From IMG/VR virus record IMGVR_UViG_3300010412_000077, positions 1 through 24,406 of that record: a stretch of 24,406 nucleotides of DNA. One strand, written 5' to 3'. The translations under genes were made by a program, and so were the position numbers. Origin of the DNA: a virus. Positions 5,322 through 20,152 of the stretch are shown here, one piece after another; positions within the stretch are counted from its first letter, which is position 1, and every line of letters begins with the position of its first letter. The notes beneath the pieces are model-generated. The model saw nothing but the letters and a program-made list of their open reading frames with translations. It did not search any database and was not told where the DNA came from.

Positions 5322-7118
5322 CTATCCGCCCATTCCCCAGCCATACATTCTGGTGAGGTTATCCCAGCTGTTGGCATTGATAGCCCCACCAGCCATGTAA
5401 GCACTGGCAGAGGTTGCGCCTGCGCCGCCTATGGCATTGGCTCCAGCCTGACCGTAACCGCTTTGGGTTGCCGCAGAAGTATTGGAACTGGACCCGCCGT
5501 ATCCGGCAATCATGCCCAATCTGTCAAAGATTTTGCCGTATTCATTGGAAGCATAGTCCTGTCCCCACGAGGTAATGGCCTTGAGCGCACCACCAGATAA
5601 GGCGCCACCTCTGGCCGCTGCGCCCCGTTCGATCATCCTCTGGCCCTCGTCCATCCTGAACTGATAGCCCGGATCGGTCTTCCAGTCATACATTGGAGCT
5701 TCAGACAGAATGTTCGGGATGGTGTCCACCGTATAGGGATTGCCCGGGGTACCAGTTCCGCCAGCATTGCCTTGACCGGGAGCCGTGTTCCCGAGAGTGG
5801 TGTTCACCGACCCCTGATTCCCGAAGAAGGTATTCATTACCCCGCCAAAAGGCGGTGGGTTCTGGCTCGGAACCATGCCATTAGCGTATCCGTCGGCTGG
5901 CTGAGTTGGGCCTCCGGGCTGATATGTCGGATTTAGTCCAGTAAATGCAGTATTCCATAGTCCGGAACCAAAGGTTCCCCCTGTAATATGCGGCGTCACA
6001 CCCGGGACAGACTTGCCCTTGGCCATCGCCATGGCGGCACCCTTTGGACCGGGGATCACTGTACCGCTGGTTCCGGGCGGAAGAATTGAAGGCTGTTCAT
6101 AACGGACAACCCTGCCATCATCGAATTCAACAGTTTCTGGTTCGATCTCTGCAACAGAATGCAGCCCGGGAAGCCTTGGGAAATGACCGCCTTCGGCATT
6201 GGTTGAACCACCAAACACACTTTTTAGCCAGCCAATCAACCCGCCGCTTCCGGTAGATGCTGGGGTAGCAGGCGCTGCAAATAATGAGTTGTAATTTGCG
6301 AAATTCCCTAGACCTTCGCCTATACCCGGAGTTGGTGCGCCAAAGTTCTGCAGCCCAGAATTGATCCCGCCGAAATTATTGACCCCGCCGATACCAATAT
6401 TAGGCATTATGCTTCCGGCCCCAGCGAATCCGCCAAGTCCGCCATCTACCCCAATAGATGGAGTTGGCGCTCCCGGTAATGTATTTCCGGAAAGATTTCC
6501 CATTGATCCAGAAGACCCTTGAGTATTGAGCAAACCACCAAGATTTGCCCCAACATCCCAAGGCATGCCAATCGCAGTGCCTATAACACCGCCTATCTCA
6601 TCTCCCCACTGGAATCCAGAGTCTGACCAACTGTTTGCAGGGTCATAGGGTGTTCCTGCAAATGGATCAAACATGGATGATCCTTGCGGCGTGTTGCCAG
6701 CCATTGGGGTAATGCCGGGACGATACGAAGTATCTACAGTACCTATTGCGCCACCTGCGCCGGGACCGGCACCACCGGGATTGTATCCTTCGTTTCCACT
6801 TCTAGCGCCACCTCCGGGCGGACCATTTCCACCAGAAGGCTGATCTGGCTGATAAGCAAAGTTACTGGCAAAGCGGGGAAGCCCCATCATATCCATCATG
6901 CCAGCCAAGGCTGTATATCCAGCTTGCTGATAGGGCGCAGTTGCTGATCTGCCCATAGCTCTGGACTCATCCAGATAGGCCAATTGCATTGCCGTAGATT
7001 CAGCTATGGCGTTGTTGGCGGCGCCTACAGCATCATCAGCCTGATCTGCTGCCCGCTGGTTACCCAAATAACCAAATACATAAGGGGCTGCTTCTCTAAT
7101 ATATTGCCATGCGCTCAT
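5322..7118 (-). CDS. Gly-rich ejection-type virion protein (P22 gp7 position)
   Basis: A 598-aa protein. ATG 7118 was chosen because it makes a 4-nt ATGA overlap with the stop of the previous gene; an upstream TTG at 7229 would add 37 unsupported residues. Residues 1-85 are Ala-rich and helical (MSAWQYIREAAPYVFGYLGN, many small residues). Residues 90-330 are Gly/Pro/Asn-rich low complexity. A short ordered patch near PRLPGLHSVAEIEPETVEFD is followed by more Gly/Pro-rich sequence. Residues 481-534 are the conserved part (DPGYQF, EGQ, AAARGGALSG, GQDYASNEYG), a block I know from many phage proteins annotated as DNA-transfer or tail-assembly proteins. A Gly/Ala/Ser tail ends the protein. It probably belongs to the set expelled with the DNA. 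Family membership is well supported; the precise role is inferred. Confidence 0.88.
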   Translation of the reverse strand: MSAWQYIREAAPYVFGYLGNQRAADQADDAVGAANNAIAESTAMQLAYLDESRAMGRSATAPYQQAGYTALAGMMDMMGLPRFASNFAYQPDQPSGGNGPPGGGARSGNEGYNPGGAGPGAGGAIGTVDTSYRPGITPMAGNTPQGSSMFDPFAGTPYDPANSWSDSGFQWGDEIGGVIGTAIGMPWDVGANLGGLLNTQGSSGSMGNLSGNTLPGAPTPSIGVDGGLGGFAGAGSIMPNIGIGGVNNFGGINSGLQNFGAPTPGIGEGLGNFANYNSLFAAPATPASTGSGGLIGWLKSVFGGSTNAEGGHFPRLPGLHSVAEIEPETVEFDDGRVVRYEQPSILPPGTSGTVIPGPKGAAMAMAKGKSVPGVTPHITGGTFGSGLWNTAFTGLNPTYQPGGPTQPADGYANGMVPSQNPPPFGGVMNTFFGNQGSVNTTLGNTAPGQGNAGGTGTPGNPYTVDTIPNILSEAPMYDWKTDPGYQFRMDEGQRMIERGAAARGGALSGGALKAITSWGQDYASNEYGKIFDRLGMIAGYGGSSSNTSAATQSGYGQAGANAIGGAGATSASAYMAGGAINANSWDNLTRMYGWGMGG

Positions 7119-7453: not shown

Positions 7454-8160
7454 TTCTCGTACAACGCTACTGAACCGAGCGAATCGCTCTGGTAGTGGAT
7501 GTCAAATTCCAGAAGGCGAGCATCGGCGCCATAGGTATCTGCAGCATCACCGCCGATTCTGGATAGCTTCCAGACAACGAGGCACGAGATATCGTATGCG
7601 CTCATGTCTATCGTCCCAAAACTTGATATCAAGACCTTGTTAGCAGTATCTGTATCAGGCGTTCCGGCTACGGCAGATGTCGTGCTAAGCGTGGTTCCAT
7701 AAGCCATGGTCGCAGTATCGCCGTTGTTGACGATCTCGTAATCCAGTTGCCAGTACACATTTCCTGATGCAGAGGTTGTTTTCTGCCAATGCACATGGGG
7801 AGATATGTCTGTGCCTTGCTTCCATGCATGAGGCATCTGGGCGATTCCCGCCAAGGTTTCTGTTCCGGCTGCGGCAAATAACCACAGACCCGTTGTGGAC
7901 TCCAGATCAGGATCAGTCACAGCCCCGGGCGGATTGATACCCTGAGAGGGAAAACGCAGGTCATCCCATCTGCTATACAGGCGCTTGTGGTTGTCTGCTG
8001 ACAAGGCTGAATCCGGACTGAGATTTGCCAGATCGCGCAAAGCGATCTCGTCTGCCGACTCAATATACAGGGCAAGCTCTTGCATGAAACGCGACCAGTC
8101 ATGCTGGTTCTCAGGCATGGCCTGTAGTCGCGGATTGGTGAGGAATCTAGGGTTCGCCAT
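7450..8160 (-). CDS. Tail/head fibre-like protein with 'PHVHW' beta domain
   Basis: A 236-aa protein. ATG 8160 is preferred, with GAGG just upstream; a TTG at 8172 would add four residues. The gene starts inside the 3' end of the gp10-like gene (14-nt overlap). Residues 1-65 are helical (NQHDWSRFMQELALYIESAD). The remainder is a beta domain with WDDLRFP, a GLWLF segment, then MPHAWKQGTDISPHVHWQ and NVYWQLDYEI. The 'PH.WK.GTDI.PHVHW' block is a recognisable motif of phage structural proteins often found beside fibre genes. I infer a tail-tip or fibre-associated virion protein. It sits where P22 has its needle gene 26 but is not a long helical needle. Confidence 0.82.
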   Translation of the reverse strand: MANPRFLTNPRLQAMPENQHDWSRFMQELALYIESADEIALRDLANLSPDSALSADNHKRLYSRWDDLRFPSQGINPPGAVTDPDLESTTGLWLFAAAGTETLAGIAQMPHAWKQGTDISPHVHWQKTTSASGNVYWQLDYEIVNNGDTATMAYGTTLSTTSAVAGTPDTDTANKVLISSFGTIDMSAYDISCLVVWKLSRIGGDAADTYGADARLLEFDIHYQSDSLGSVALYEK

Positions 8161-9571
8161 ACTGCCTCGCAATCATGCCCTTGATAACGACCTTGATAGG
8201 TCCGTATATCTTCAGCCGGAAGGCCCAGATACGACCCTCCCCGAGCTTTCTCCACACGGCACGAAGGGTGTATTCGCCTATCTTGCCGATGGACTTCTTG
8301 ATCTCATTGGACCACGTATGACCGCCGTCCTTTGACCATGACAGGTAGGCATCGGTATCAGTGCTGTCAGTCAGGCCAACGCCCTCTTCCAGATCAATCT
8401 GTACCGACTTGAGCCTTATCCTCCGCTCCTCGTCAGAGATGTTCCCTATCTGACGCACCCGGGGAATCACACCCCCATTCATGGTATATACAGAGTTGCT
8501 CAGCTGATAAATCAGGCCATTGCTCATGTCGCCAAGCAGGTGCTTGCCGCATGCGAAGGCATGGCAATTATAACGCTCCCTGTTCGGGAACACATTAGAA
8601 ATAATATGCGCCCTCTCATGCCATATCTGGGTGGCGGCATCATAGGCCCAGACAGCCTTGGCAGTCGGGAAGTTCAGGACATAGAACTCGTGTCCCTCAA
8701 GCTGATAGGTATAGGCCCATGCATCAGAGACCGTGCTGTATTGCTGAATCTGGTAAGCCATCTCTGGCGAAGAAATAATCTTGGGCGCGTAGCCCTGCCC
8801 TGCTTGTGCCACTAGACACTGACCTCGGTTGTTTCTGGTGAGCCAGACCACCGTATTGTCGAACAATTGAGGGGAGAAAGTGGCTACGCACCCATGATGG
8901 GTAAATCCGCCTTGGAATCTCTGAAAGGTATTGTTGGCGTCTCCGGAGTTGTACCAGACCTCGCTGGTATCCTCGCCAAACAGCCAGACCTGCCGCTTGT
9001 CGCATAGCACTGTCATGAGTCTGTCAGGACCGCCTTCTGCCGTAGCAAAGTCCAGTCCGTCTATAGTGCCACCGGCATACAGATTGGTGATCCAGAACCG
9101 TCCTGAACCTTTTTCTGCATAGATAAAGTACCCGTCAATGAAGTCCACCCGATCCGTTGAGGTGAAGTCAGCATCGAGAATCTGGGTGAATGTCCCGCCC
9201 GTGCTGCTGTATATCCAGCCTTGTGAGCCATCCACCACCATGATCTCATTACCAACGCCCGGGCCGTTGTGAGCCATGGAGACCCGTCCTGACGAGGTAT
9301 TCAGGGTGCCTCTGCTGGTTACTGTCCCTGTGGAAGATATCTCCAAGAACTTGCTGCCAACTACGGCATATACAACATTCTGCCCGTAGGCAATAATTCC
9401 CCTGACCTCACCGCCATGGGCGGAACAGTCTGCAAACTGGGTGCATCCCGGGGTGCCAACTAAGGCGCCTTCAGCATGACTCGCCGGATCAAAGTACAGA
9501 TTTATACAGCGTTCAGGAGAGACCGAGGACGATCTTCCTGTATACGATCCGCCGATCATGGGGATTTTCAT
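8147..9571 (-). CDS. P22 gp10-like tail hub / packaged-DNA stabilisation protein
   Basis: A 474-aa protein from ATG 9571, overlapping the gp4-like stop by 4 nt (ATGA), which suggests translational coupling. The N-terminus MKIPMIGGSYTGRSS with ERCINLYFDP is the typical opening of P22 gp10-like proteins. The bulk is a beta-propeller-like series (VVYAVVGSKFLEI, MVVDGSQGWIY, VDFIDGYFIYAEKGSGRFWI, VWLFGEDTSEVWYN, DNTVVWLTRNNRG), and the C-terminus (LRAVWRKLGEGRIWAFRLKI) is the usual closing strand block. In P22, gp10 hexamers bind below gp4 and close the tail tube after packaging. The order gp4 then gp10 is conserved here. Length is as expected for the family, and there is no sign of damage. Confidence 0.94.
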   Translation of the reverse strand: MKIPMIGGSYTGRSSSVSPERCINLYFDPASHAEGALVGTPGCTQFADCSAHGGEVRGIIAYGQNVVYAVVGSKFLEISSTGTVTSRGTLNTSSGRVSMAHNGPGVGNEIMVVDGSQGWIYSSTGGTFTQILDADFTSTDRVDFIDGYFIYAEKGSGRFWITNLYAGGTIDGLDFATAEGGPDRLMTVLCDKRQVWLFGEDTSEVWYNSGDANNTFQRFQGGFTHHGCVATFSPQLFDNTVVWLTRNNRGQCLVAQAGQGYAPKIISSPEMAYQIQQYSTVSDAWAYTYQLEGHEFYVLNFPTAKAVWAYDAATQIWHERAHIISNVFPNRERYNCHAFACGKHLLGDMSNGLIYQLSNSVYTMNGGVIPRVRQIGNISDEERRIRLKSVQIDLEEGVGLTDSTDTDAYLSWSKDGGHTWSNEIKKSIGKIGEYTLRAVWRKLGEGRIWAFRLKIYGPIKVVIKGMIARQYGEP

Positions 9572-10509
9572 CGACCTCTGACCTCTGCTTCAATGCGGAA
9601 CGATGCATTCTCCACATCGTAATCCAGCATGTCATTGAGAAGGGCCTTTGCCTTGGCTTCTGTCGCCAGCCTATCCTGAAGAGGTAACCCATATTCCCAC
9701 GAAAGCTCTGCCGCCAGCCCCCAGACGATGGTATTTGCCCACTCTGGAGGAAACTCCGGATTATCTGCACCCGTGTCAAAATCATCCGGAAGGTTTTCCG
9801 TAATCAGTACCAGTTTGTCATCGTAAAGGTTGCTGACTGGCCACACGTACAGCGTTCCGTTAGTCAGGGTAGGTTGATACCAGATTTGGTTGATTCGCCC
9901 CGTAGCGGCCTTTCTGGAAAGCCTCCTGTACTCTTTTTCTCCGATCAGGTCTATTTCTGTATCGGTAGCCAAAGTATCCCGTCTGTGGGCATAAATAATT
10001 TTCTGGGGTCTTGGAGATTTGGTTGTGTAGGCATAGACATTACGACCAGCTGTAGCAGCTGATGCCACCCCGGTAGTCAATGTGATCTGTGTAGCGGAAT
10101 CTACCGATGAGATGGTATCCCAGTGAAGAGATAGGTCATCTAGTTTGATTCCAATATTATCAGCAGCAGTCATACCTGTCGTAGACAAAACGGTAAGCGT
10201 CGTTCCGCTTGCTGCAATATCTAGCGCAACCGCAGTCTCCACATAAGACGCCGTAAAATGATCGCCGCTTGGGCCAAGAGAATAGTTTTGCGAGGTGCCA
10301 TCCAGAAATAGCGTGCAAGTCTGACGTAGCCAAATATCTATACCCTGTCCAACCCACCCCTTGATCATTAGATTCAAGGCACGGGAAGCATCCTGCGTAT
10401 CAGCGCCAGACGCCGGTTCCCCGGCATCGAACTCACCGATCTTGCGCAATGCAGCATCGATGATTTCATTTCTGGTAACGGTGAAGTCTTTTGATCCTGA
10501 TGTAGCCAT
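9568..10509 (-). CDS. P22 gp4-like head-to-tail adaptor (packaged-DNA stabilisation) protein
   Basis: A 313-aa protein. ATG 10509 overlaps the upstream TAA by one base (TAATG) and is preferred over a TTG at 10527. Residues 10-70 carry the gp4 hallmark: RNEIIDAALRKIGEFDAGEP, ADTQDASRALNLMIKGW and GIDIWLRQT. Residues about 165-313 (PRPQKIIYA, the EKEYRRLSRKAATGR region, WYQPTLTNGTLYVWP, ENLPDDFD, PPEWANTIVWGLAAELSWEYGLP) continue the fold, ending in helices with a RGR tail. Residues 88-163 are an extra beta-rich insertion that P22 gp4 is not known to have but that occurs in many gp4 relatives. gp4 attaches to the portal after packaging and prepares the neck for gp10. Confidence 0.94.
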   Translation of the reverse strand: MATSGSKDFTVTRNEIIDAALRKIGEFDAGEPASGADTQDASRALNLMIKGWVGQGIDIWLRQTCTLFLDGTSQNYSLGPSGDHFTASYVETAVALDIAASGTTLTVLSTTGMTAADNIGIKLDDLSLHWDTISSVDSATQITLTTGVASAATAGRNVYAYTTKSPRPQKIIYAHRRDTLATDTEIDLIGEKEYRRLSRKAATGRINQIWYQPTLTNGTLYVWPVSNLYDDKLVLITENLPDDFDTGADNPEFPPEWANTIVWGLAAELSWEYGLPLQDRLATEAKAKALLNDMLDYDVENASFRIEAEVRGR

Positions 10510-11921
10510 TAGTGTGTCGCCAGCCAAAGGTTGAAAGAGTTTCTACGACGCAGAATTTCTCCTGCGTTGAAAGAACCATAAACTGCGGTTCCCTGATTTA
10601 CTGCTATCTCAGCGCCTGTTAGCTCAACGTCAACATCTACAACAGTCGATGTGCCTGACGCTGTTACTGTACCAGATTGCGCAATAATTGACGCGCCTGT
10701 TATCGCAATTTTCGTACCGCCAGAAAACGCAACAGAGCCTTGTTGCGCTGCAATAACTGCGCCATATAGAAGACTTACGGCATCTCCGTTTGTCTGGATC
10801 GTAAGCTCGCCATGATGCGCAGCAGCTTCTGCTCCTGTAACTGAAGCAGTCTGAACATCTGCAGCAGCAACTGCTCCTGACTGAGCTGACGAGGATGCTC
10901 CTGTAAGAGCAAACCTCGCTTTTCCTGTAACAGTAGTTGACCCAGCTTGAGCGGCTGATTCTGCTCCATCAATATAGATAACGACTGTTGATCCGAGCAT
11001 TTCTGTGGCGCCAGAATTGATCTGCGCACCAGTAATCTCGAATGCCGTATCTACAACGGTTGTATTCTTTCCGGTAAATGCGCCATATAGCGAGGCTAGA
11101 CCTACCGGACCAAGGTCCGAGAAAGCTGTTCTTTGTATTCCTTTTCCGGTGAAAACAGTATAGACACCAGATAAGCCAATAGGGCCAAGATCAGAAAAGG
11201 TGTCTTTACCAGTACCTGCTGTTACACCAACCGTAACAGAAGCCGCTTCTCCAGCTGTTTCTGCACCAGTTACTGCTGCTTGGGTTCCAATCGTAAGAGT
11301 AACTGTGCCTGCGTCGGAAGCTATCTGCGCCCCTGTAATCGCAAACTCAATGTTTGCCCCAGCACCATGGTCGAAAGACGAATACGGCCCTACAGGAAGG
11401 CCCAATGGGGACAAATCGCTATATGCTGGCTTGGCTGCTTCGCCTATTCCAGCAGCAGTTCCATATTCCGCTGCAGCTTCCGCGCCAGTTAGCGTTGCAG
11501 AAACACCAAAAGAAATTGTCACGTTCCCGGCTTGTGCGGCAGTCGCTACGCCGGTTGGTTGCGGGATACTGGTTCCTCCAGCAACAACAGCATCTGTTTG
11601 AACATTTACTTGATCGCCAGTAATGGCGAATATGGCATTACCGACAACAGTGAAAGCGCCAGAATCAGCGCCAATCTCTGCGCCGGTTACAGAAGCAATT
11701 GTTGGCGTAACCTTGTTCCAGTCTGGATATGGCGCCAACGGTAACGCGACAGGCGAAAGATCGGAGTAATTCGCCTTGATGACTTGGAAGTCAACTGCAA
11801 GAGTACCGGCAGCAGCGGTGGCTTCTGCGCCAGTTAAAGATGCCGTTACGCCTACATGCCTAAGATCAGCATATAATCCAGAAGGCAGACCAGCAGGCGA
11901 CAGGTCTGAATAATTTGCCAC
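10509..11921 (-). CDS. Repeat protein with TGA/GxV and YSDLSP motifs; putative virion exterior protein
   Basis: A 470-aa protein from GTG 11921 (no ATG fits; GGGGG lies about 4 nt upstream), 22 nt after the preceding stop. It is almost wholly repetitive. About twelve copies of a beta-type unit, 'TGAxxxxxxGxxxV' (for example LTGAEATAAAGTLAV, ITGAQIASDAGTVTL, VTGAEAAAHHGELTI), lie near residues 30, 79, 122, 146, 196, 218, 297, 318, 340, 362, 408 and 435. Five copies of 'YSDLSPxGLPxxxY' begin at 4, 52, 167, 242 and 267, the last two reading FSDLGP. Ala, Gly, Thr and Val dominate and there is no Cys. The C-terminus (RRRNSFNLWLATH) is different and basic/aromatic. Similar TGA-type repeats are common in phage proteins of unknown function. 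I infer an extended beta-solenoid or fibrous element just upstream of the neck genes. Confidence 0.82.
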   Translation of the reverse strand: MANYSDLSPAGLPSGLYADLRHVGVTASLTGAEATAAAGTLAVDFQVIKANYSDLSPVALPLAPYPDWNKVTPTIASVTGAEIGADSGAFTVVGNAIFAITGDQVNVQTDAVVAGGTSIPQPTGVATAAQAGNVTISFGVSATLTGAEAAAEYGTAAGIGEAAKPAYSDLSPLGLPVGPYSSFDHGAGANIEFAITGAQIASDAGTVTLTIGTQAAVTGAETAGEAASVTVGVTAGTGKDTFSDLGPIGLSGVYTVFTGKGIQRTAFSDLGPVGLASLYGAFTGKNTTVVDTAFEITGAQINSGATEMLGSTVVIYIDGAESAAQAGSTTVTGKARFALTGASSSAQSGAVAAADVQTASVTGAEAAAHHGELTIQTNGDAVSLLYGAVIAAQQGSVAFSGGTKIAITGASIIAQSGTVTASGTSTVVDVDVELTGAEIAVNQGTAVYGSFNAGEILRRRNSFNLWLATH

Positions 11922-11943
11922 CGCTACCCCCGATAGGCCGCTC

Positions 11944-12543
11944 CTAGACGACTATAAATAAATCGCCGTCAGACGGGGCTTCAGTCAATGCATCGAACGT
12001 AAACACAAACTCACTATAGGTCGCGTCCCATGAGTAGTCTGTGATGCTGGTTCCCTGTCCATACAATGCATCACTTGGGTCATGGAAGAATATCTTCCTT
12101 CCAATGAAGTGGTCTGCAGTGGTCTCTGTATGCGAGGCAGGATACAACGCTGTTGCCTGAAGTGTAGTGGTAGACGACGCTACATTGCCGGTATTCACTT
12201 CCATTTGAAGCATGGATCGTGAGCCGAGCAACTGGCCGGACTTGATGGTATTCAGGATAATGCACTGGTCCTCTACCGCTTTCGTCGCGGAATCCACCAC
12301 CTGAATAACAATTCTCGTTCCAGAGGTTTCTGCAGCCGTCACGGCAAGAGACCAGAATGCAGCACCAGTTACACCTATTGCAATGGTGTTGGTGCATTGT
12401 GTCAATGTGCCGCCATCAATAGAACGTTTTGCATCAGCTGCAGCTGGTGTCCAGTCTGCTGCTACCGCAAAGTCCTGACTGCCAGCTTTGATCATCGGGA
12501 AGTAGATCGTCTGAGCAGTCCCATAAATTACATCTATTTCCAT
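11944..12543 (-). CDS. Fibre-associated beta-rich virion protein
   Basis: A 199-aa protein from ATG 12543, one base after the upstream stop. Residues 1-100 follow a pattern frequent in phage fibre and baseplate-adjacent proteins: a polarising start, ADWTPAAADAKRSIDGG, AFWSLAVTAAETSGTRIVIQ, then TKAVEDQCIIL. Residues 110-199 form a second beta region (TTTLQATALYP, HFIGRKIFFHDPSDALYGQG, ITDYSWDATYSEFVFTFDAL, PSDGDLFIVV). No catalytic residues are obvious. It lies between the beta-helix and the TGA-repeat protein, and the near-zero spacing suggests they are made together. A structural linker or adsorption subunit is the best guess; the exact role is unknown. Confidence 0.8.
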   Translation of the reverse strand: MEIDVIYGTAQTIYFPMIKAGSQDFAVAADWTPAAADAKRSIDGGTLTQCTNTIAIGVTGAAFWSLAVTAAETSGTRIVIQVVDSATKAVEDQCIILNTIKSGQLLGSRSMLQMEVNTGNVASSTTTLQATALYPASHTETTADHFIGRKIFFHDPSDALYGQGTSITDYSWDATYSEFVFTFDALTEAPSDGDLFIVV

Positions 12544-12544
12544 T

Positions 12545-13573
12545 TCAGGTTCCTCTTCCTATGCCTCGGGCAATACCGCGCCCGATGCCTGTGAAATCCA
12601 CTGTTGTGATGCTAGTGCCGCCCACGTATTCAAATGCTCCTATGCTCGGAGGATTTGCCCGCGCGGTTCCGATTATGTCTGTGGCTGGGGTGCCGGTTGC
12701 CGTTCCTGTGCCATCCAGACCACCAGAAGCAGCCGGGGTATAGTCCCCGCCAGCGTAGTTATTAAAGTCTGCCGTGGTAATTTGCTGATAATTCGTAGCG
12801 CCAGAATATGCGGCCAACGCCCCGGCGTTTGAGTCCTCCGTCCAACTGGCTCCGGCGTCTTCAGAGTATTCAACCCCAGTGGTTGCCGTTGCACCAATGA
12901 CCACATTATTTTTTACCGTCCATCCGGAATCGTTTGCCCCGTTTTGGATGCCTACTGCAAACGTATTTTCAACTCCAAGAATCGTATTGTTTAGATATTT
13001 TATCCCGGTGTGATAACCGCCTGCTGTGCCGGTAACATATCCCGTGCTTGTTGTGTCGTTTTGGTGTAATACGCAATTTTCCACCGTCCCGTTAACAAAC
13101 GGCGCTATTACCTTGCTGCCAGCCCTTGCAAGTATCGCCCGCAGGGTCACATTATTTTTATTGGCTTTAACCCCATAAACCTCTTGTGAACCGTTTGCCG
13201 TGTTCCATACGATAAGCCCCTCAAATATGCTATACGTTGGGCCAAGATTTTGTATTATGTATGCGTATGTGCCACCAGAGTTACAACGCCACCCAGCGCC
13301 CACCGTAGAATCTACTCCATCGTGTTCCTCTCCGGGCCACGGCTTGTAATGGACATAATGCGTAGAATCAGTTGTCCACGCGCCTTGCCCGATATTAAGA
13401 TTGGTGGTAGACGTTGTTACAAGACCCTTGATGTAAACAGTGTGTATCCCCTCTGCCGTCAGGTCGCGCACCTCCGCAGTTTCCCATGCAGATAGCGTAT
13501 TATATGGTGAGGAAATAGAACCATCACCACCGCCCGCAGCATCAAAGTCTATATATACAGTTGTGTCTGCCAT
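12545..13573 (-). CDS. Right-handed beta-helix (pectate-lyase-like) putative receptor-binding protein
   Basis: A 342-aa protein whose ATG directly abuts the previous stop (TAAATG). The start is typical of phage and bacterial beta-helix proteins: TTVYIDFDAAGGGDGSISSP then YNTLSAWE. Successive rungs follow: THYVHYKPWPGEEHDG, YAYIIQNLGPTYSIFEGLIV, YGVKANKNNVTLRAILARAG, NGTVENCVLHQND, TGIKYLNNTILGVENTFAVGI and WTVKNNVVIGATA. The C-terminus leaves the helix (GSPATD-like loop, NPPSIGAFEYVGG) and ends in a Gly/Arg repeat, GIGRGIARGIGRGT. Such folds bind or cleave polysaccharide in tailspikes. The sequence shows no clear catalytic set, so binding rather than cleavage is equally possible. A tailspike or fibre role is inferred. 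Confidence 0.85.
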   Translation of the reverse strand: MADTTVYIDFDAAGGGDGSISSPYNTLSAWETAEVRDLTAEGIHTVYIKGLVTTSTTNLNIGQGAWTTDSTHYVHYKPWPGEEHDGVDSTVGAGWRCNSGGTYAYIIQNLGPTYSIFEGLIVWNTANGSQEVYGVKANKNNVTLRAILARAGSKVIAPFVNGTVENCVLHQNDTTSTGYVTGTAGGYHTGIKYLNNTILGVENTFAVGIQNGANDSGWTVKNNVVIGATATTGVEYSEDAGASWTEDSNAGALAAYSGATNYQQITTADFNNYAGGDYTPAASGGLDGTGTATGTPATDIIGTARANPPSIGAFEYVGGTSITTVDFTGIGRGIARGIGRGT

Positions 13574-14650
13574 TTATGGTGGACTCCAGTCTGATGGTTT
13601 GTACATATAGACGCTTTCGCTAATAGCGTTAACGCCTATGAAAACGTCATACTCTGCGGCATAGGCAAAGCGCCCGTTGATGCCTTCTGGTGTTCCCGGT
13701 GTCGGGGTCACGCCTCCGGGTGATCGCGTAGACCACGAATCAGTGGTGGGATTGTAAATGTACAGCGTTGAGCCGCCCTCCCACGCCACGTATTCATCAC
13801 GCACGGAATCGTAATCGTATCCGGGAGATTTACTCGTTGGCGCACCGGATGTCGAGAGACGCAGCGTTGTTGTCCAGTTTCCAATCGTATAGCCCTGATG
13901 TGTATTCCATTCGAAACCGTTACCCTTCCATATCATTCGATTGCGTAAAGTATCTAGCAGCATCGAGCCGTATCCCTTCTCGCCCCTTGATCCATAATCG
14001 GTCTTGGTGTCTGTTATTGGATCGTAACTATGCAGACTTGGCACCACTGTTCCGTGGCCCTCCGCTATATAGAAAACCTGATCTGTCGGATGCCATATCG
14101 CGCTGCCACTGTGATCGTCACCGGCAGAAGCATTTAGCGCCGTCCATGTATCTGTGGCCGGATTCCAGCCTTGGTAAGTTGTGAGTGGTGTTCCGCCTCG
14201 ACCAAGCCTGTATAGATTGCCGTTAAGAGGGCAATAACCAAGATGGTCATAAGTATGCTGGGCCTTTGGCGCACCGTCTGGATACCACCCGTTTACCTGT
14301 GTGGTTCTGGATAGCAAAGTGGGCGCATTCATGCGCCGCCATACGTTGTTAGCTAGACTGAACGCATACCACTCGTTTCCGTCGTAATCATCGTGACCAC
14401 CACCAGTAACATATAGGTCATGCGTATCAACAGAATAAACGCCGCCACACCAAGGCAGCATTATGCTTTCTATATTTGTGGGCCAAAGAGCGCCGCCAGT
14501 CGTCGGTGGGTTTGCCACATAATCCCACGCCACGGATTCAAGTGTATTCGTACCAATGGCGGTCCATTGGCCAGCAGTGGCGTTTTGGATGTGCGAAGGG
14601 TATCCAGCAACCGAAGGGACGGTAAATGCGTTGCTAGTTACTGTGGTCAT
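13574..14650 (-). CDS. Kelch-like beta-propeller protein
   Basis: A 358-aa protein from ATG 14650, 7 nt after the previous stop. It repeats a propeller-blade pattern: YSVDTHDLYVTGGGHDDYDG with NEWYAFSLANNVWRRM (residues 72-106), NLYRLGRGG...WNPATDTWTAL, QVFYIAEGHG...HSYDPITDTKTDYGS, RNRMIWKGNGFEW and EYVAWEGGSTLYIYNPTTDSW. The 'GGGHxDYxGN' and 'YNPTTDSW' elements are typical kelch/galactose-oxidase-type motifs. No copper-site residues of galactose oxidase can be assigned, and there is no signal peptide, as expected for a virion protein. It is coupled to the beta-helix gene downstream and the 742-aa gene upstream. I infer a carbohydrate- or surface-binding exterior subunit. Confidence 0.85.
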   Translation of the reverse strand: MTTVTSNAFTVPSVAGYPSHIQNATAGQWTAIGTNTLESVAWDYVANPPTTGGALWPTNIESIMLPWCGGVYSVDTHDLYVTGGGHDDYDGNEWYAFSLANNVWRRMNAPTLLSRTTQVNGWYPDGAPKAQHTYDHLGYCPLNGNLYRLGRGGTPLTTYQGWNPATDTWTALNASAGDDHSGSAIWHPTDQVFYIAEGHGTVVPSLHSYDPITDTKTDYGSRGEKGYGSMLLDTLRNRMIWKGNGFEWNTHQGYTIGNWTTTLRLSTSGAPTSKSPGYDYDSVRDEYVAWEGGSTLYIYNPTTDSWSTRSPGGVTPTPGTPEGINGRFAYAAEYDVFIGVNAISESVYMYKPSDWSPP

Positions 14651-14657
14651 GCCAACG

Positions 14658-16886
14658 CTACCCCCTCTTTACCGTTGACCAAACAGGGGCCGCGTCAAAG
14701 TCCGCAGTCGTGAATCCACCTATTATTCGGTTATATTCAGTGTCTGTTAGATACCCAGCGTCCCTCGCAGCACATACTGCGGCACGAAGGTTTGCACCAT
14801 AGTACGTCGCTATACTCGCAACATTCGCATCATTAAATGATCCACTAAGGCTGCAGCTTACAGGACCATATACATTTGACGCATACGTTGCCCAATCAGC
14901 AACATAAGTTCCAGTACTGCCGTCCCCGGGGTTTGTTCCGTGGCTGCCTTGCACACCATATTGCCAGCACCATGTCGTGTCAGAGCCGTAACTTGTTATC
15001 CCCCTGATCCACTGGGCCAGCCAAAGTAAAACCGCTGATGTGTTTGTCCCGCCAAGCTCCAATTCCGACAACCTGAAAGCCACGGCAAGATAGAAATACT
15101 GCATAAACGCAGCATTTTGGGCCGGATAATCGTAATCATCCAACCACCCGAAGATGTTATCCCAAGCACCAGTCACATACTGACTGTAAATATAATTAAT
15201 AGTGTCCGTGCAGCAAGTGTCAAAGTAGGTAGTCATAACGTGCGAATCTGGACTAATAAATGCCGCCCTCATCACATCGCGCAACCCCCACGCCTGAGAC
15301 CTCTTTTGAGCGCCTTCTGGCATCAGCGCCATGTCAGTTGCAAATCTGGCGTATTGCGCCCCAGTCTCGCCCTCTGCGGAGAGTATGCTGTTATTCCCCC
15401 AATACCAGATAGTTTCAAGGAAGTAATACTTTCCTGTAAGCAAATAAGCAAGATATCCATTGGCGGGTTTGTGGCTTGACTTACTTGTGGTGTCAGCCTT
15501 TGTCCCCGTCCCAACCTTCAAAACAGTTGGCGTCCAGCCCCTGTCATCTGCTGTTGGATATGTCTGTCTATTGACTGGATATCCGGTAGCGGAATCCTTG
15601 TAATGAATAGACCTGTGATTCGCTGCCTTGGCGTTACATATCACCGCCGCAACAGCATCAGAAGGGAAGCCATTACGAATGGCCGAAACATCCCACTCTG
15701 GGAGTGGCCCAATCTGCTTATGATAGCCAGTTGAACCGTAATCAACCCTATGATCGCCAAGCTCGTAAGGAGCAATAGTCTGCGTGTAACCGTCTATTAG
15801 AGTCTGGGGAACAGCGCCGGACTTATATTGCTCAATAGCCTTTGTGGAATACAAGTAGGATGTACTGTGTGCAACATGGACGCCCGGATCGCTTACCCAG
15901 TAAGTCTCCATGAATCTTGTGTTGTGGTAAATCGTTTGACTTGCACTGTAAACCTGTGTCCCTGCCAGAGTAAATGTGCAAGTCGTGGCAGATGTGGTGT
16001 TGGCATTTGCGGACAATGCCTCTGCGTTTTCTATAACAAAATCGACAGACAAGGCCCCATTGCTATAGTAGCGGCAATGGAAAAATCCATATACAGTCCC
16101 GCTAATCTGCCCTCCAACAATGCGCTCAATGCAATATGGGCCGTCCTGCCACGCAATTTTCCCCGGAGCCGCAGGTGTCCCAGCAAGCAGGGTCGCGGCA
16201 TTTATGCTTCCAGTGACCCCACCGGAGAGCGTGATCGTGGTCGTGCCGAGCGCCGAGATTAACGCAGCCTCGGTCAGCGAGGTAGCGGACGGGTCTGCTA
16301 TCAAGTGCAAGTCGTGAGAACCAGCAGACGAGAACACACCGGAGAATATCCCGAACTTCAGCGACCCATCGGACCACGTGGCCTTCTTTGTGACCTGAAT
16401 ATTTTCGTCGGTGACATTAAGAGTGTAACCGGCAGGCACATCACCCTTTGCGAAGGCATGGCCAAATGTGGCTGCACCAGTTCCGGTGACAGTAATGCTG
16501 GCTATGGCTGTGCCATAGTCCGCCTCCATCGTTATTCCAGTCTGCTGCGTGGTGCCGTAGGTCAAAATTCCAGTAACTGAATCATACGACGCATCACCAG
16601 TAAGTCCTACTGCCCGTGTAACTGAAACCAATCCCAGTGGATCGTCAAGATACTGCAGCATATTGTGCGAAGTACCAGCAGGAAGCGTTGCTGGTATTGT
16701 ATTCCACCCAACTCCAAACACTGTCGCGGTTCCGGCGCGCCCCAGCAATCCTGTCCCAGTTAATATCGCCGTGCCATGCGGCATTGTTACTGTTCCAGAT
16801 TGGGCATATATCGCAGCAGTCGGTATATCGAACTGAGCCGATGTCGGTGTGTAATCATGAAAGATTGTTACATCCGATCTGACCAT
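14658..16886 (-). CDS. Large putative polysaccharide-acting virion protein (RIFT-like plus alpha/alpha-toroid-like)
   Basis: A 742-aa protein from ATG 16886, 2 nt after the preceding stop. Residues 20-58 (AAIYAQSGTVTMPHGTAILTG) resemble the repeats of the 470-aa protein downstream. Residues 138-190 carry FGHAFAKGDVPAGYTLNV, KKATWSDGSLKFGIFSGVF and SAGSHDL. This 'F..GDVP.G......K.TW.DGS.K' pattern is one I associate with RIFT-barrel proteins related to rhamnogalacturonan lyases. Residues about 470-720 are helical and aromatic-rich (NGYLAYLLTGKYYFLETIWY, RSQAWGLRDVMRAAF, NAAFMQYFYLAVAFRLSEL), consistent with a toroid as in polysaccharide lyases. Catalytic residues cannot be assigned. I infer a depolymerase or glycan-binding spike; the enzyme class is uncertain. 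Confidence 0.82.
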   Translation of the reverse strand: MVRSDVTIFHDYTPTSAQFDIPTAAIYAQSGTVTMPHGTAILTGTGLLGRAGTATVFGVGWNTIPATLPAGTSHNMLQYLDDPLGLVSVTRAVGLTGDASYDSVTGILTYGTTQQTGITMEADYGTAIASITVTGTGAATFGHAFAKGDVPAGYTLNVTDENIQVTKKATWSDGSLKFGIFSGVFSSAGSHDLHLIADPSATSLTEAALISALGTTTITLSGGVTGSINAATLLAGTPAAPGKIAWQDGPYCIERIVGGQISGTVYGFFHCRYYSNGALSVDFVIENAEALSANANTTSATTCTFTLAGTQVYSASQTIYHNTRFMETYWVSDPGVHVAHSTSYLYSTKAIEQYKSGAVPQTLIDGYTQTIAPYELGDHRVDYGSTGYHKQIGPLPEWDVSAIRNGFPSDAVAAVICNAKAANHRSIHYKDSATGYPVNRQTYPTADDRGWTPTVLKVGTGTKADTTSKSSHKPANGYLAYLLTGKYYFLETIWYWGNNSILSAEGETGAQYARFATDMALMPEGAQKRSQAWGLRDVMRAAFISPDSHVMTTYFDTCCTDTINYIYSQYVTGAWDNIFGWLDDYDYPAQNAAFMQYFYLAVAFRLSELELGGTNTSAVLLWLAQWIRGITSYGSDTTWCWQYGVQGSHGTNPGDGSTGTYVADWATYASNVYGPVSCSLSGSFNDANVASIATYYGANLRAAVCAARDAGYLTDTEYNRIIGGFTTADFDAAPVWSTVKRG

Positions 16887-16888
16887 TA

Positions 16889-17149
16889 CTATCCAGCTTG
16901 TCCTCTGAATAATCCGGGCGTTAGAGTAAATTTAACATCAAGGTTTTCAAGAAAAGGTTCGCCCTTGACCTGATTACCATGCGAATCCTGCCATCCAATC
17001 TTAAACTCATGGCCATCTGTCATTCGTATGATGAGCCAAATACCATCCTTGTATGCAGCCTCAACCCTTCTGCCCTGAAGGTGAGAAGTAATCCACCCCG
17101 GAGTGCCGAATGTCTCAAGCTGCTTAATTGATCCAGTAGAACGAGTCAT
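16889..17149 (-). CDS. Small protein of unknown function
   Basis: An 86-aa protein from ATG 17149, overlapping the sulfotransferase-like gene by 26 nt. It has a short helical start (MTRSTGSIKQLETFGTPGWI) and a compact beta-type middle (GRRVEAAYKDGIWLIIRMTDGHEFKIGW) that looks like a three-strand SH3- or WD-like patch, then a charged stretch and TLTPGLF. I do not recognise a family. Coding is supported by the conserved operon spacing, a normal amino-acid composition, and the absence of a better frame. It stands just before the 742-aa protein and may be a folding helper or a virion adaptor, but this is only a positional guess. Confidence 0.7.
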   Translation of the reverse strand: MTRSTGSIKQLETFGTPGWITSHLQGRRVEAAYKDGIWLIIRMTDGHEFKIGWQDSHGNQVKGEPFLENLDVKFTLTPGLFRGQAG

Positions 17150-17576
17150 AATATCTCCGAAACCACTCCATATTTCCCGGCAACCTGATCCAATCCATTA
17201 GGACCTTGATCTCAGGAAGATCGGGTATCTCTTTTCTTGCGTAGATTTCTCTGTAGGGACTGCGACCAAATGCGCCTTCCCTGATAGGTAGGTTCTCAAC
17301 TTTTACAATCATGGGGCTATGCGTCATGCAGTACTCAATGCATACGTCCCAGAAAGCAAATTCTTCAAATTCAGTGCGATCTGTCTGCCGTGAACGCCAC
17401 GTAAGAGTTACAGCAAGCGGATCGCGTATCGGAACCACGCAGTCTCCCACCTGATTCCAGATGTCTTCTGCCTTTCCTCCGTTATGCTCTGGAGGATAGA
17501 AATGCCAGAATCCCGCAGCAGGATATAACGCACGTAACGTGTGCGTTCCTGAATGCGGAACACTGGCAATAAACAT
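17124..17576 (-). CDS. Sulfotransferase-like P-loop protein (short)
   Basis: A 150-aa protein whose ATG overlaps the previous TAA by one base (TAATG). The N-terminus FIASVPHSGTHTLRAL resembles the 5'-phosphosulfate-binding loop of sulfotransferases (usual form PxSGTT), with P7, S9, G10 and T11 in place. VVPIRDPLAVTLTWRSR at 48-63 resembles the 3'-phosphate-binding segment (RDP followed by S/R). The C-terminal half has helices rich in Trp/Tyr (MEWFRRYYDSFYWI). True PAPS sulfotransferases are usually 250-300 aa, so this one lacks much of the acceptor-binding part or is a minimal version. The usual Lys of the loop is His here (H8). It might modify a glycan, a virion protein or a host compound, or be catalytically inactive. 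The fold assignment is moderately sure; the activity is not. Confidence 0.78.
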   Translation of the reverse strand: MFIASVPHSGTHTLRALYPAAGFWHFYPPEHNGGKAEDIWNQVGDCVVPIRDPLAVTLTWRSRQTDRTEFEEFAFWDVCIEYCMTHSPMIVKVENLPIREGAFGRSPYREIYARKEIPDLPEIKVLMDWIRLPGNMEWFRRYYDSFYWIN

Positions 17577-18019
17577 TACGCCAGCCTGATGATCGACGTA
17601 TTGTATGCAGGGGCAGGGAATTGGACAGTAAAGTCACCAGTAGACGATGATTTATTTTCGCCAAAGTCTCCGACATACACGCTGGCATTGGATTTGCTCG
17701 TATTGTAGATCAGGCACCCACGAGCTGTGATGGTCGATGAACTCCATGTCTCATTCACAAAATCTACATGCGCAACATGATTCGTTGTATCAACTGCTGG
17801 TTGGGCACTCTCTAGCGTCAATGTATTTCCAGCCGTTGTATAGCCACCGCCTGAAGCTACCTCACTAGAGGTTGTATAAGCAGTTGTTCCGTAACCCATG
17901 CTTGCTGTATCTACATACAACGCAATCTTGTATGTATCGGGAGTTGCCCCGAAATCATGACCAGTTCCGTCAAGAAGGTCTACCCTGAAACTATCTGTCA
18001 GACAGGTAGTAATTGCCAT
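17576..18019 (-). CDS. Small beta-rich phage structural protein
   Basis: A 147-aa protein from ATG 18019 with AGGAG about 6 nt upstream, 9 nt after the previous stop. The pattern TYKIALYVDTASMGYGTTAY, TSSEVASGGGYTTAGNTL, AHVDFVNETWSSSTITARGC, LIYNTSKSNASVYVGDFG, then GDFTVQFPAP and a closing IIRLA is a well-spread family of small phage proteins usually annotated as hypothetical or virion structural. It is nearly all beta with no catalytic signature. The tight pairing with the 127-aa gene suggests both are parts of the same decoration or fibre-base assembly. Confidence 0.82.
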   Translation of the reverse strand: MAITTCLTDSFRVDLLDGTGHDFGATPDTYKIALYVDTASMGYGTTAYTTSSEVASGGGYTTAGNTLTLESAQPAVDTTNHVAHVDFVNETWSSSTITARGCLIYNTSKSNASVYVGDFGENKSSSTGDFTVQFPAPAYNTSIIRLA

Positions 18020-18028
18020 ATTGCTCTC

Positions 18029-18412
18029 CTATGTTTTCCTGAAATGAAGCACTATATGGCCACCACCAGCTGCGGTGTAACCGATAGAAGTCCAGTTCAC
18101 ATCACCAGTAGCGCCAGTGCCAGCGTTGTTTTTGATACCGCCGAACTCTCGGTAATCCTGACAATCACTTCCTGACAACTCAAGGATGCTCACATCAGAT
18201 GTGGCGTCCCAGAGAAGTACGACACTGAAGCCATCCAACGCCCATGCTGCCTTGACTAATGTCAGGCCATTGACGCCAATGGCTGTATCGATTGCTGAGA
18301 CATCAACCAGCGTACCTGCTGCCGTGTCTCCAGTCGTTCCATCGATGACGTACTTGACGACAAGGTTCCGTGGGCCGTTATTGATGATCTGCTGGGTGGC
18401 TGTTGCCGCCAT
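18029..18412 (-). CDS. Small beta-rich virion-type protein
   Basis: A 127-aa protein from ATG 18412. The start is decided by an unusually complete Shine-Dalgarno sequence. The protein begins MAATATQQIINNGPRNLVVK and continues with beta strands (DGFSVVLLWDATSDVSILEL, VNWTSIGYTAAGGGHIVLHF). 'NGPRNLVVKYVI' and 'G.HIVLHFRK' are patterns seen in small proteins near capsid and fibre genes of many phages. No function has been established that I can name. The strong ribosome site suggests a high copy number, which fits a decoration or fibre subunit. Confidence 0.8.
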   Translation of the reverse strand: MAATATQQIINNGPRNLVVKYVIDGTTGDTAAGTLVDVSAIDTAIGVNGLTLVKAAWALDGFSVVLLWDATSDVSILELSGSDCQDYREFGGIKNNAGTGATGDVNWTSIGYTAAGGGHIVLHFRKT

Positions 18413-18413
18413 G

Positions 18414-18424
18414 GATCACCTCCT
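18414..18424 (-). promoter_or_regulatory. Extended Shine-Dalgarno site
   Basis: The minus strand reads AGGAGGTGATC here, one base before the ATG at 18412. It is an 11-nt match to the complement of the bacterial 16S 3' end and overlaps the stop codon (TAG) of the lectin-like gene. The core AGGAGG lies about 6 nt from the start. It fixes the start of the 127-aa gene and predicts strong initiation. Confidence 0.75.
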
Positions 18425-19178
18425 ATCGCTGTACTGCGAAACGAAAGTAATCGACATGAACAACGTCTGCAGTTGTTGCATGGCCAGCCAGCATTCCAAT
18501 GAACGGAGCAAGAGCCAGATCATCCGGAACCTGCGCCTCTGTCAGCGAAGAAGCCACCTGAGTGCCATCAACGTATGCCCTGACGCAGCCATCACCAAGA
18601 GTGCTCGCTCCGTTGAATGACAGCGCCAGCGTGTGCCAAGTGTTGTCAGACAAGGTAGCAGCAGTCGTGTTGGTGTTGGTCTCGGTAACAGTACCGCCGT
18701 TGTTCTTGTCGTAGGTCAGTTGGCAAACCGCCGTATCCAGAAGACCGAAAGAAATATAATCAGTGGTAGTGGTGGTCCAGATGTCTTCTGGATTGGTGGT
18801 TGCGGTCAGATCAGACAGGCCAAACTGGAACGTCATGGCAGACACATCTTCAATCTTGACCCGAACTTCCATGAAGAACTTCTTGCCATTCAAATGGACA
18901 CACTTGGGCAGATAGACTGCCACGCCCTCGTTGTCCGCGTCAGAGTCGAGCAGCAACTGTCCGCCGATAAGACCGGCATTGGTCGCTGTACATCCGACAT
19001 CGATGATTGCAGCAGACCACCCAGCGGGGACGTTTGTTGCAACAGGACCAGTGAAGTCATCAAAGAACGACACCCATTCCTTCGACGGGAACATTCCCAT
19101 GCCGCGACGGTAGGGAAACGTCAAATCCTTGCCGTGTACGATACTCTCGGCAACCGAGAAAGCATTATTCTTGGACAT
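18423..19178 (-). CDS. LamG/concanavalin-like lectin-fold protein
   Basis: A 251-aa protein. ATG 19178 is preferred because GGAGGG sits 7 nt upstream; a TTG at 19193 would place that site inside the gene. After a short N-terminus (MSKNNAFSVAESIVHGKDLT), residues 36-250 show a jelly-roll lectin pattern: WVSFFDDFTGP, GQLLLDSDADNEGVAVYLP, GKKFFMEVRVKIEDVSAMTF, QFGLSDL, DNTWHTLALSFNG, GCVRAYVDGTQVAS and VVHVDYFRFAVQR. The 'D..WHTLALSF......V.AYVDG' element is the classical LamG/ConA core. It is the first gene after the coat hairpin. I infer a capsid-decorating or fibre protein that may bind glycans. Confidence 0.88.
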   Translation of the reverse strand: MSKNNAFSVAESIVHGKDLTFPYRRGMGMFPSKEWVSFFDDFTGPVATNVPAGWSAAIIDVGCTATNAGLIGGQLLLDSDADNEGVAVYLPKCVHLNGKKFFMEVRVKIEDVSAMTFQFGLSDLTATTNPEDIWTTTTTDYISFGLLDTAVCQLTYDKNNGGTVTETNTNTTAATLSDNTWHTLALSFNGASTLGDGCVRAYVDGTQVASSLTEAQVPDDLALAPFIGMLAGHATTADVVHVDYFRFAVQR

Positions 19179-19243: not shown

Positions 19244-20152
19244 TTAGGCGCCCGGAGAGCCGTACAGTCCACGCGGATCGGTCCAGCCAACACTAAAGCG
19301 CATGTATCCTTTCGCCTTGGCGTTGTCAGTATCGAAATCTGAGTCCTTGGTGAACTCCACAGCTTCACGATTGAACCACCGCAACCCGCTGGGTGCATTG
19401 GTCCTGACGAACCATGCATCCGCATCAGTGAAGTAGTGATTTACGTGAACCGTCGGAATCACACCACGAGAACGCAGTGCGTTGACAGCATTGTTTGCCG
19501 TGTCATTCTGAAGCGTTGACTTCAGGATTCGCTCGGCCTCAAAGACCAGCTGTGGCGGAACAAGCAAGGCAGTGGGTCGCAGGGAGATTTTCATTCCCTT
19601 GCTATTCGTCGCCTGCATGATTTGCACCGCGATATCTTCCAGAGAAGCCTCGGAAAGATCAGCTGCGGTAGACAGTTCATTGCTGAACGTGCCACCGTTT
19701 GCCATCGTGTGCGCCGTTGACAACAGTTCCAGCCCGTCTGCTCCGACGTAGCTGTTGCTGAATGCACGGTTGTACACGTTGGCGCCTACGTTCTCCCGGG
19801 TCTGTGCCATGGAGAATGCCAGAGCCGCTGCGCGGTTCATGGACACTTCCTTGTACAGATTGTCTGCCAGCTCTTCGCGGGTCACGATGTAACCCAGTGC
19901 ATACGCTACGTGCGTATAGCGGGCCACATTTCCCTGCGAGTTGCCGTCATAGACGACGGGAGAACCCTGCGCCTTGATCGGAGCCAGACCGAATGAGGTG
20001 TGTTCAACCTCTTCCTCGTAAGCTTTCGAGGAACCGACAACATCAAACAGCTTGTCGTACTCAGTCTCATGCTCGTCGTACTTCGCGCCGAACCACTTGT
20101 ATACCCCGGGCCACAGTGCTTTGGGGTGATTGCCAGTTGTAATGACTGCCAT
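19244..20152 (-). CDS. Major capsid (coat) protein, Mu gpT-like HK97-type
   Basis: A 302-aa protein from ATG 20152 with AAGGGGG about 8 nt upstream, 12 nt after the previous stop. Recognisable coat features include the N-terminal KALWPGVYKWFGAKYDEHET with YDKLFDVVGSSKAYEEEVE, the E-loop-like GLAPIKAQGSPVVYDGNSQG, the central helix VTREELADNLYKEVSMNRAA with ALAFSMAQTRE, and then the A-domain segment SLRPTALLVPPQLVFEAERI followed by IPTVHVNHYFTDADAWFV. It follows scaffold and head genes and precedes a hairpin, the usual signs of the most heavily expressed gene. It resembles the Mu-like major head subunit (gpT) family, which has the HK97 fold, rather than P22 coat. No protease gene is visible in the window, so maturation cleavage cannot be judged. 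Confidence 0.93.
   Translation of the reverse strand: MAVITTGNHPKALWPGVYKWFGAKYDEHETEYDKLFDVVGSSKAYEEEVEHTSFGLAPIKAQGSPVVYDGNSQGNVARYTHVAYALGYIVTREELADNLYKEVSMNRAAALAFSMAQTRENVGANVYNRAFSNSYVGADGLELLSTAHTMANGGTFSNELSTAADLSEASLEDIAVQIMQATNSKGMKISLRPTALLVPPQLVFEAERILKSTLQNDTANNAVNALRSRGVIPTVHVNHYFTDADAWFVRTNAPSGLRWFNREAVEFTKDSDFDTDNAKAKGYMRFSVGWTDPRGLYGSPGA

Follow-up and report, generated by a model that had tools for sequence, protein, structure and literature searches.

What occupies the gap between the coat gene and the head-tail adaptor gene (gp4) of a P22-type phage when that gap is 8738 bp long? In P22 itself, one small open reading frame (ORF), orf69, and 232 bp lie between coat and gene 4, a contrast that a preliminary description of the present locus, made from its letters, had drawn correctly. 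The DNA analysed here is IMG/VR virus record IMGVR_UViG_3300010412_000077; "the window" denotes this whole stretch of 24,406 bases, in which the late genes are all on the minus strand. Ten genes stand between coat and gp4 in the window. We conclude, with a probability of roughly 0.68, that this interval is a hypervariable island of genes for the virion exterior and for host recognition, set within the operon of late structural genes in a P22-type phage. The genes that border the interval, and the one beyond, are the following.

19244..20152, minus strand: major coat protein, a Mu gpT-like head protein (phrog_371 "major head protein", 2e-13); left border of the island in transcription order
9568..10509, minus strand: gp4-like head-tail adaptor (phrog_637 Ad3, 2.6e-5; SU10_adaptor, 3.8e-6; both weak); right border of the island
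8147..9571, minus strand: gp10-like head-closure protein (phrog_578 Hc3, 5.3e-115)

The coat–gp4 interval is the variable point of the head module

To compare this interval among relatives, we scanned IMG/VR with the coat protein and obtained 80 loci at 54-74% identity to the window coat. Both borders were present in 61 sequences (the window, 58 IMG/VR loci and two annotated phage genomes), which form the interval set; 51 loci were left after near-identical ones had been removed. Flanks of the relatives were fetched to 10 kb only, so that intervals longer than this may be missed. Loci are numbered L001 upwards where they need to be told apart.

When all window proteins were mapped on the coat-scan loci, the order of the head genes was the same throughout, followed by gp4 and gp10. 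The coat–gp4 gap, on the other hand, ranged from 57 to 8738 bp (median 1677 bp, 61 loci). The longest was that of the window, and it was still the longest among the 51 non-redundant loci. The other junctions of the head module had median gaps of 24-79 bp. Gaps of at least 600 bp occurred between coat and gp4 in 53 of 61 loci, between gp4 and gp10 in 12 of 53, and at the remaining junctions in 0 to 6 of 59-80. Gene content also varied here between conserved structural genes (61 loci), which is the mark of a hypervariable island. The variability of the head module, which is conserved elsewhere, is thus concentrated in the coat–gp4 interval. Comparably long intervals were found in L063, L077 and the complete genome MW202796. 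The closest sister, L093, carries coat (70%), lamG (77%), two copies of b127, a gene for 262 amino acids (aa) and gp4 (56%); the eight-gene stretch that follows b127 in the window is missing.

A recurrent opening and close

Within the intervals, 242 ORFs were called by a simple script and then clustered by similarity. In 19 loci the first gene after coat belonged to a beta-repeat family of about 320 aa and in 8 to the lamG family; a further 11 had a member of the small beta families 4 or 5 in this place. Of the 51 non-redundant intervals, 24 contained the b127 family, and 23 of these 24 also had the ~320-aa or the lamG family (families 2 and 3; p = 7e-8 without correction for shared ancestry). 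A zinc-ribbon family of 78-180 aa supplied the last gene before gp4 in 17 loci. Minimal intervals read lamG-b127-gp4 (L053) or lamG-b127-zinc ribbon-gp4 (L021, L055).

The interval therefore opens with a coat-companion gene, either lectin-fold or ~320-aa beta-repeat, often followed by a jelly-roll gene. At its other end a zinc-ribbon gene often directly precedes gp4, and extra genes are inserted mainly between these. In the window it reads lamG-b127-b147-sulfo-s86-rift-kelch-helix-b199-TGArep-gp4, that is, two recurrent genes plus eight extra ones. The two recurrent genes are:

18423..19178, minus strand: lamG, a protein of the ConA/L-type-lectin fold, recurrent first gene after coat (Laminin_G_3, 8.9e-7)
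18029..18412, minus strand: b127, a single jelly-roll protein, recurrent second gene

The first two genes as predicted capsid-exterior proteins

The lamG protein scored 29.6 bits against Laminin_G_3, above the Pfam cut-off of 27.6. Its structural model (predicted local distance difference test, pLDDT, 75) has an L-type lectin fold, with Z 18 to ERGIC-53 and legume lectins. A scan with a lamG alignment, in which coat was not used, found 50 loci; coat lay upstream in 38 of them, within 500 bp in 36. The coat-adjacent loci include many without detectable gp4 or gp10. These data suggest that lamG is likely a capsid-exterior lectin or decoration protein with putative carbohydrate binding.

The model of b127 (pLDDT 88) matched the C-terminal jelly roll of the STIV turret (Z 8.8), Ena fibres (7.9) and the HFTV1 turret (7.3), as well as the capsid cements of KHP40 (7.1), KHP30 (6.3) and Pam1 (6.3). 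The matches of Z 6.3-7.3 to HFTV1, the KHP phages and Pam1 extend over about 95 residues. The structural matches also included jelly rolls with no relation to these, PHM and CBM29 for example. A search with Foldseek alone placed cupins on top at a template-modelling score of about 0.4, and it was not used for any claim.

The cement proteins of Pam1 and KHP30 sit at three-fold positions of the capsid (PMC9698820). Cyanophage Pam1 resembles the window group in its order of capsid, cement, adaptor and gp10-like needle head genes and in the similar jelly-roll fold predicted for b127, but it has one cement gene and no cargo, and its cement protein has no detectable sequence similarity to b127. The gene order in Pam1, together with a gp10 detectably related to that of the window, strengthens the case for b127 as a cement. 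In 24 of 51 intervals the b127 gene occupies the same position between capsid and adaptor genes. On the basis of its predicted structure and its place, b127 is likely a protein of the capsid cement or turret type.

The eight further genes

The preliminary description had placed ten coupled genes between coat and gp4, and this was confirmed: ten ORFs with spacings of -26 to +22 nucleotides (nt) fill 19178-10509 on the minus strand, and no element splits the block. It had named nine proteins; the tenth is the 86-aa ORF at 17149-16889. Eight of the ten, spanning 18019-10509, are cargo that is mostly unique to the window:

17576..18019, minus strand: b147, a member of phrog_644 (6.6e-14, residues 1-138)
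17124..17576, minus strand: sulfo, a small P-loop-like protein with sulfotransferase-like motifs only (motif resemblance)
16889..17149, minus strand: s86, an 86-aa coupled ORF with no relatives found in family, profile and interval-clustering searches
14658..16886, minus strand: rift, a RIFT barrel plus presumed alpha-toroid, resembling exo-rhamnogalacturonan lyases (PcRGLX_1st, 2.5e-4)
13574..14650, minus strand: kelch, a beta-propeller protein (Kelch_6, 1.1e-5; KLHL3 chain, 1.2e-6)
12545..13573, minus strand: helix, right-handed beta-helix-like by sequence style, with a choice-of-anchor-Q-like C-terminus (NF041518, 0.033, sub-threshold) and a short GIGRG repeat tail
11944..12543, minus strand: b199, a beta-rich protein with no family match in Pfam, PHROGs or NCBIfam-type searches
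10509..11921, minus strand: TGArep, a repeat protein with a basic C-terminus (five [FY]SDL.P..L motifs, TGA...GTVTV repeats; weak phrog_11541, 1.7e-3)

Some of the names first given to these proteins withstood scrutiny better than others. LamG and kelch (25.7 bits against a cut-off of 25.3) pass the Pfam thresholds. The rift protein falls just under its own (21.2 against 22.1 bits) while its phage homologue, gp39 of EBPR siphovirus 1 (25% identical to rift over 341 aa), passes at 23.3 bits (5.6e-5); rift is a candidate glycan-active or glycan-binding protein. The beta-helix label reflects sequence style and the weak choice-of-anchor-Q tail. A firm name of sulfotransferase was rejected for sulfo because no sulfotransferase profile matched in Pfam or NCBIfam, nor did any PDB entry. 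TGArep is a candidate fibre or linker protein.

Relatives of the cargo are few. Homologues of b147 lie in the same interval of L019 and L077, and phrog_644 genes directly follow the capsid gene in the satellite MiniFlayer and lie some genes after it in phiCbK. The sulfo protein shares 40% over 67 aa with a protein encoded just before gp4 in L038, and SVPH[ST]GT.TL and RDP motifs are common to both. The tail of helix resembles one in a 570-aa interval protein of L008 (E 0.002), and repeats comparable to those of TGArep are fused to a b127-type domain in L083. Five proteins (rift, kelch, helix, b199 and TGArep) had no homologue in any locus of the interval set by tblastn or clustering. No match to kelch, helix, TGArep or sulfo was found in 50,697 phage records. 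Scans that detect close relatives only found none of rift, kelch or TGArep in IMG/VR, and none of rift in GTDB contigs.

Two further observations concern proteins of similar style. A beta-helix interval protein of L019 (13885-15228) begins with an apparent Sec signal peptide (MSLIKPLALAVSIALSAPAFA), unlike helix of the window. Repeat proteins in the style of TGArep occur in L071 (12291-14174), L077 (13201-13971) and L019 (15666-17147) without sequence similarity to it, two of them with short basic C-termini.

The preliminary description had raised the question of whether the block swaps as a unit. This was not observed: the first two are recurrent and the eight cargo genes are separate from them, and homologues of b147 and sulfo occur singly, in other combinations, in the same interval elsewhere. 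Unit swapping was rejected because of these mixed combinations. Nor were all ten genes found conserved as core genes when gene order was compared among the relatives.

What the relatives carry in the interval

Matches to tail fibres or tail proteins were found in the intervals of L033, L068 and L072, the last with a tail-assembly DUF4376 protein, and L065 has a pectate-lyase-type tailspike. In the complete genome MW202796, about 7.5 kb between coat and adaptor hold several genes annotated as fibres, together with a K1-lyase C-terminal domain. Lectin domains are also present in the intervals of relatives. Sugar-modifying genes (GT41-like, hexapeptide and WbuX N-acetyl sugar amidotransferase) lie in L040, methyltransferases in L010 and L012, and a polysaccharide deacetylase in L063. 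Several intervals contain homing-type HNH or endonuclease VII genes. In L063 related genes of this endonuclease VII/HNH type are first and last (6410-7081 and 14434-14844), as if bracketing the cargo.

These findings bear on the earlier proposal of a single cassette for exterior recognition. The interval is indeed a variable accessory region between structural genes, and relatives hold tail fibres, a tailspike and lectin domains there, but it is not one cassette. The related suggestion that several alternative adsorption proteins are made at once would fit the operon layout.

Weighing the explanations

We propose that lamG and b127 would cover the outside of the capsid, while the eight extra genes would form a lineage-specific, mostly beta-structured set for head fibres or tail-side appendages that may bind host surface glycans or trim them. 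The close coupling of the genes would keep cargo production in step with coat and gp4. Recombination may add and remove genes singly or in small numbers, in some relatives perhaps with the help of homing endonucleases, and the island would have entered at the position that the cement gene has in Pam1. Virion incorporation, glycan binding and exchange by recombination are what we infer from this arrangement.

Several observations weigh against this proposal. None of the ten block proteins of the window has a match in a named family of tail fibres or receptor-binding proteins. The role of the five relative-less cargo proteins rests on fold type and place because no relative was found. The likeness of b127 to cements and turrets is a lead, because its fold scores (Z 6-9) are within reach of common jelly-roll arrangements and a search gave no sequence match to any cement protein. 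The G+C content at third codon positions (GC3) is 0.53-0.64 in coat, lamG and b127 and 0.33-0.50 in the cargo; this fall speaks for the proposal, but as an argument it is weak because gp4 is itself low (0.478). Finally, the window contig is a fragment, cut at its left end.

One alternative is that the extra genes encode the tail apparatus mainly responsible for receptor binding (tailspike or side fibres), with none on the capsid and with lamG and b127 as tail parts too. Tail fibres or tailspikes do lie in the same interval of L065, L072, L033 and MW202796, and no other tailspike was seen in the window. However, a tailspike may lie outside the window because its left end is cut, lamG follows coat in 38 of 50 independently found loci, many of which lack detectable gp4 or gp10, and capsid cements and turrets are among the nearest folds of b127. 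We consider this alternative unlikely.

Another possibility is that the cargo consists of auxiliary genes, late in the operon and not in virions, that alter host surface or metabolism by superinfection exclusion or glycan remodelling. This would account for the GT41-like, N-acetyl sugar amidotransferase, methyltransferase and polysaccharide-deacetylase genes of the relatives, and glycosyltransferases are also found in the pelagimyophage island (PMC7029224). In the window, however, the cargo is mostly beta-structured and adhesin-like; only sulfo resembles a small-substrate enzyme, and that label is weak. It is quite improbable that the cargo has this role. An assembly artefact, in which an unrelated stretch was joined between b127 and gp4, is the least credible explanation, for although five genes lack relatives and GC3 is lower in the stretch, both junctions are coupled (9 nt from b127 to b147; a one-base overlap between the TGArep stop and the gp4 ATG at 10509), b147 and sulfo have homologues in the same interval of other contigs, and L063, L077 and MW202796 are of comparable length there.

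A bolder reading of the locus can be imagined. Instead of ordinary tail adhesins, the capsid would display a multi-protein glycan-handling coat of lectin, jelly roll, propeller, beta-helix, RIFT/toroid lyase-like enzyme and repeat-protein linker, with a phage-made enzyme modifying the glycans of its own virion. We regard this as a long shot.

Other means of arranging the block were also considered. Separate transcription was rejected, as no promoter-like excess was found in the block and there was no sign of a transcript of its own. Transposition or site-specific insertion was rejected too, given the lack of flanking direct repeats and of any tRNA or Rfam match.

The surrounding module

In transcription order the late genes are portal, a small ORF, a GroES-like gene, a scaffold-like gene, two more head genes and coat (ending at 19244), then the ten-gene block, gp4, gp10, two small genes and ejection-type proteins. 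Homologues of gp4 and gp10 thus follow coat in the order of a P22-type connector module. The pairing of a Mu gpT-like coat (19244-20152) with P22-type gp4/gp10 (8147-10509) is a mosaic common to the whole relative group. The GroES-like co-chaperonin gene (22396-22031) is kept in 60 of the 82 loci first fetched.

A beta domain is inserted at about residues 85-160 of gp4 (10509-9568); gp4 of L041, L067, L071 and L072 lacks it. In L040 and L080 the zinc-ribbon gene directly before gp4 carries a fused segment that resembles it (28% over 101 aa, E 1e-8; 27% over 66 aa, 3e-6). This domain seems, from sequence similarity, to shuttle between adjacent genes. In five relatives (L025, L052, L055, L061 and L066) gp10 is broken near residue 320 by roughly 1-1.5 kb.

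Relation to known systems

Among known systems, the host recognition cluster of pelagimyophages and cyanomyophages is comparable: it is a hypervariable island in which, in pelagimyophages, tail fibres and glycosyltransferases lie between structural genes (PMC7029224). Those phages are T4-like and their islands measure 34-45 kb, whereas the window represents a P22-type podovirus with up to about 9 kb. Unlike the myophage clusters, the present island lies between coat and gp4 and opens with recurrent coat-companion genes. Glycan-binding capsid decoration proteins are known in Hoc of T4, pb10 of T5 and the head fibres of phi29 (PMC7602432). Like the block proteins they are accessory, mostly beta-rich and of proposed carbohydrate binding, but they are capsid-borne while those of the window are predicted from gene sequences. 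The folds differ as well, and in the window one locus combines a lectin fold with a jelly roll and a number of larger proteins.

Two more distant systems share single elements. The adsorption module of MiniFlayer (PMC10690885) comprises a capsid gene, a phrog_644 protein, a LamG-bearing giant protein, a tail fibre and an adaptor; this is an unrelated satellite of a Streptomyces phage, and only the b147 family is common to it and the window. In EBPR siphovirus 1, gp39-gp40 place a RIFT/toroid protein like rift beside a fibronectin-type "glycosyl hydrolase" gene in the late region, but between the terminase and head genes of a siphovirus. A literature search of incomplete coverage found no paper describing a coat–gp4 island. 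The island is of a known kind, unusually large here; its new features are that it occurs in a podovirus, that it lies between coat and gp4, and that it is built in two parts.

These data point to one defined site behind coat where widespread, mostly uncultured short-tailed phages exchange outer equipment. The site allows candidate host-recognition and capsid-display proteins to be picked from metagenomes, and the lamG type, the b127 type and the ~320-aa family of the first slot are recurrent enough for testing as capsid parts.

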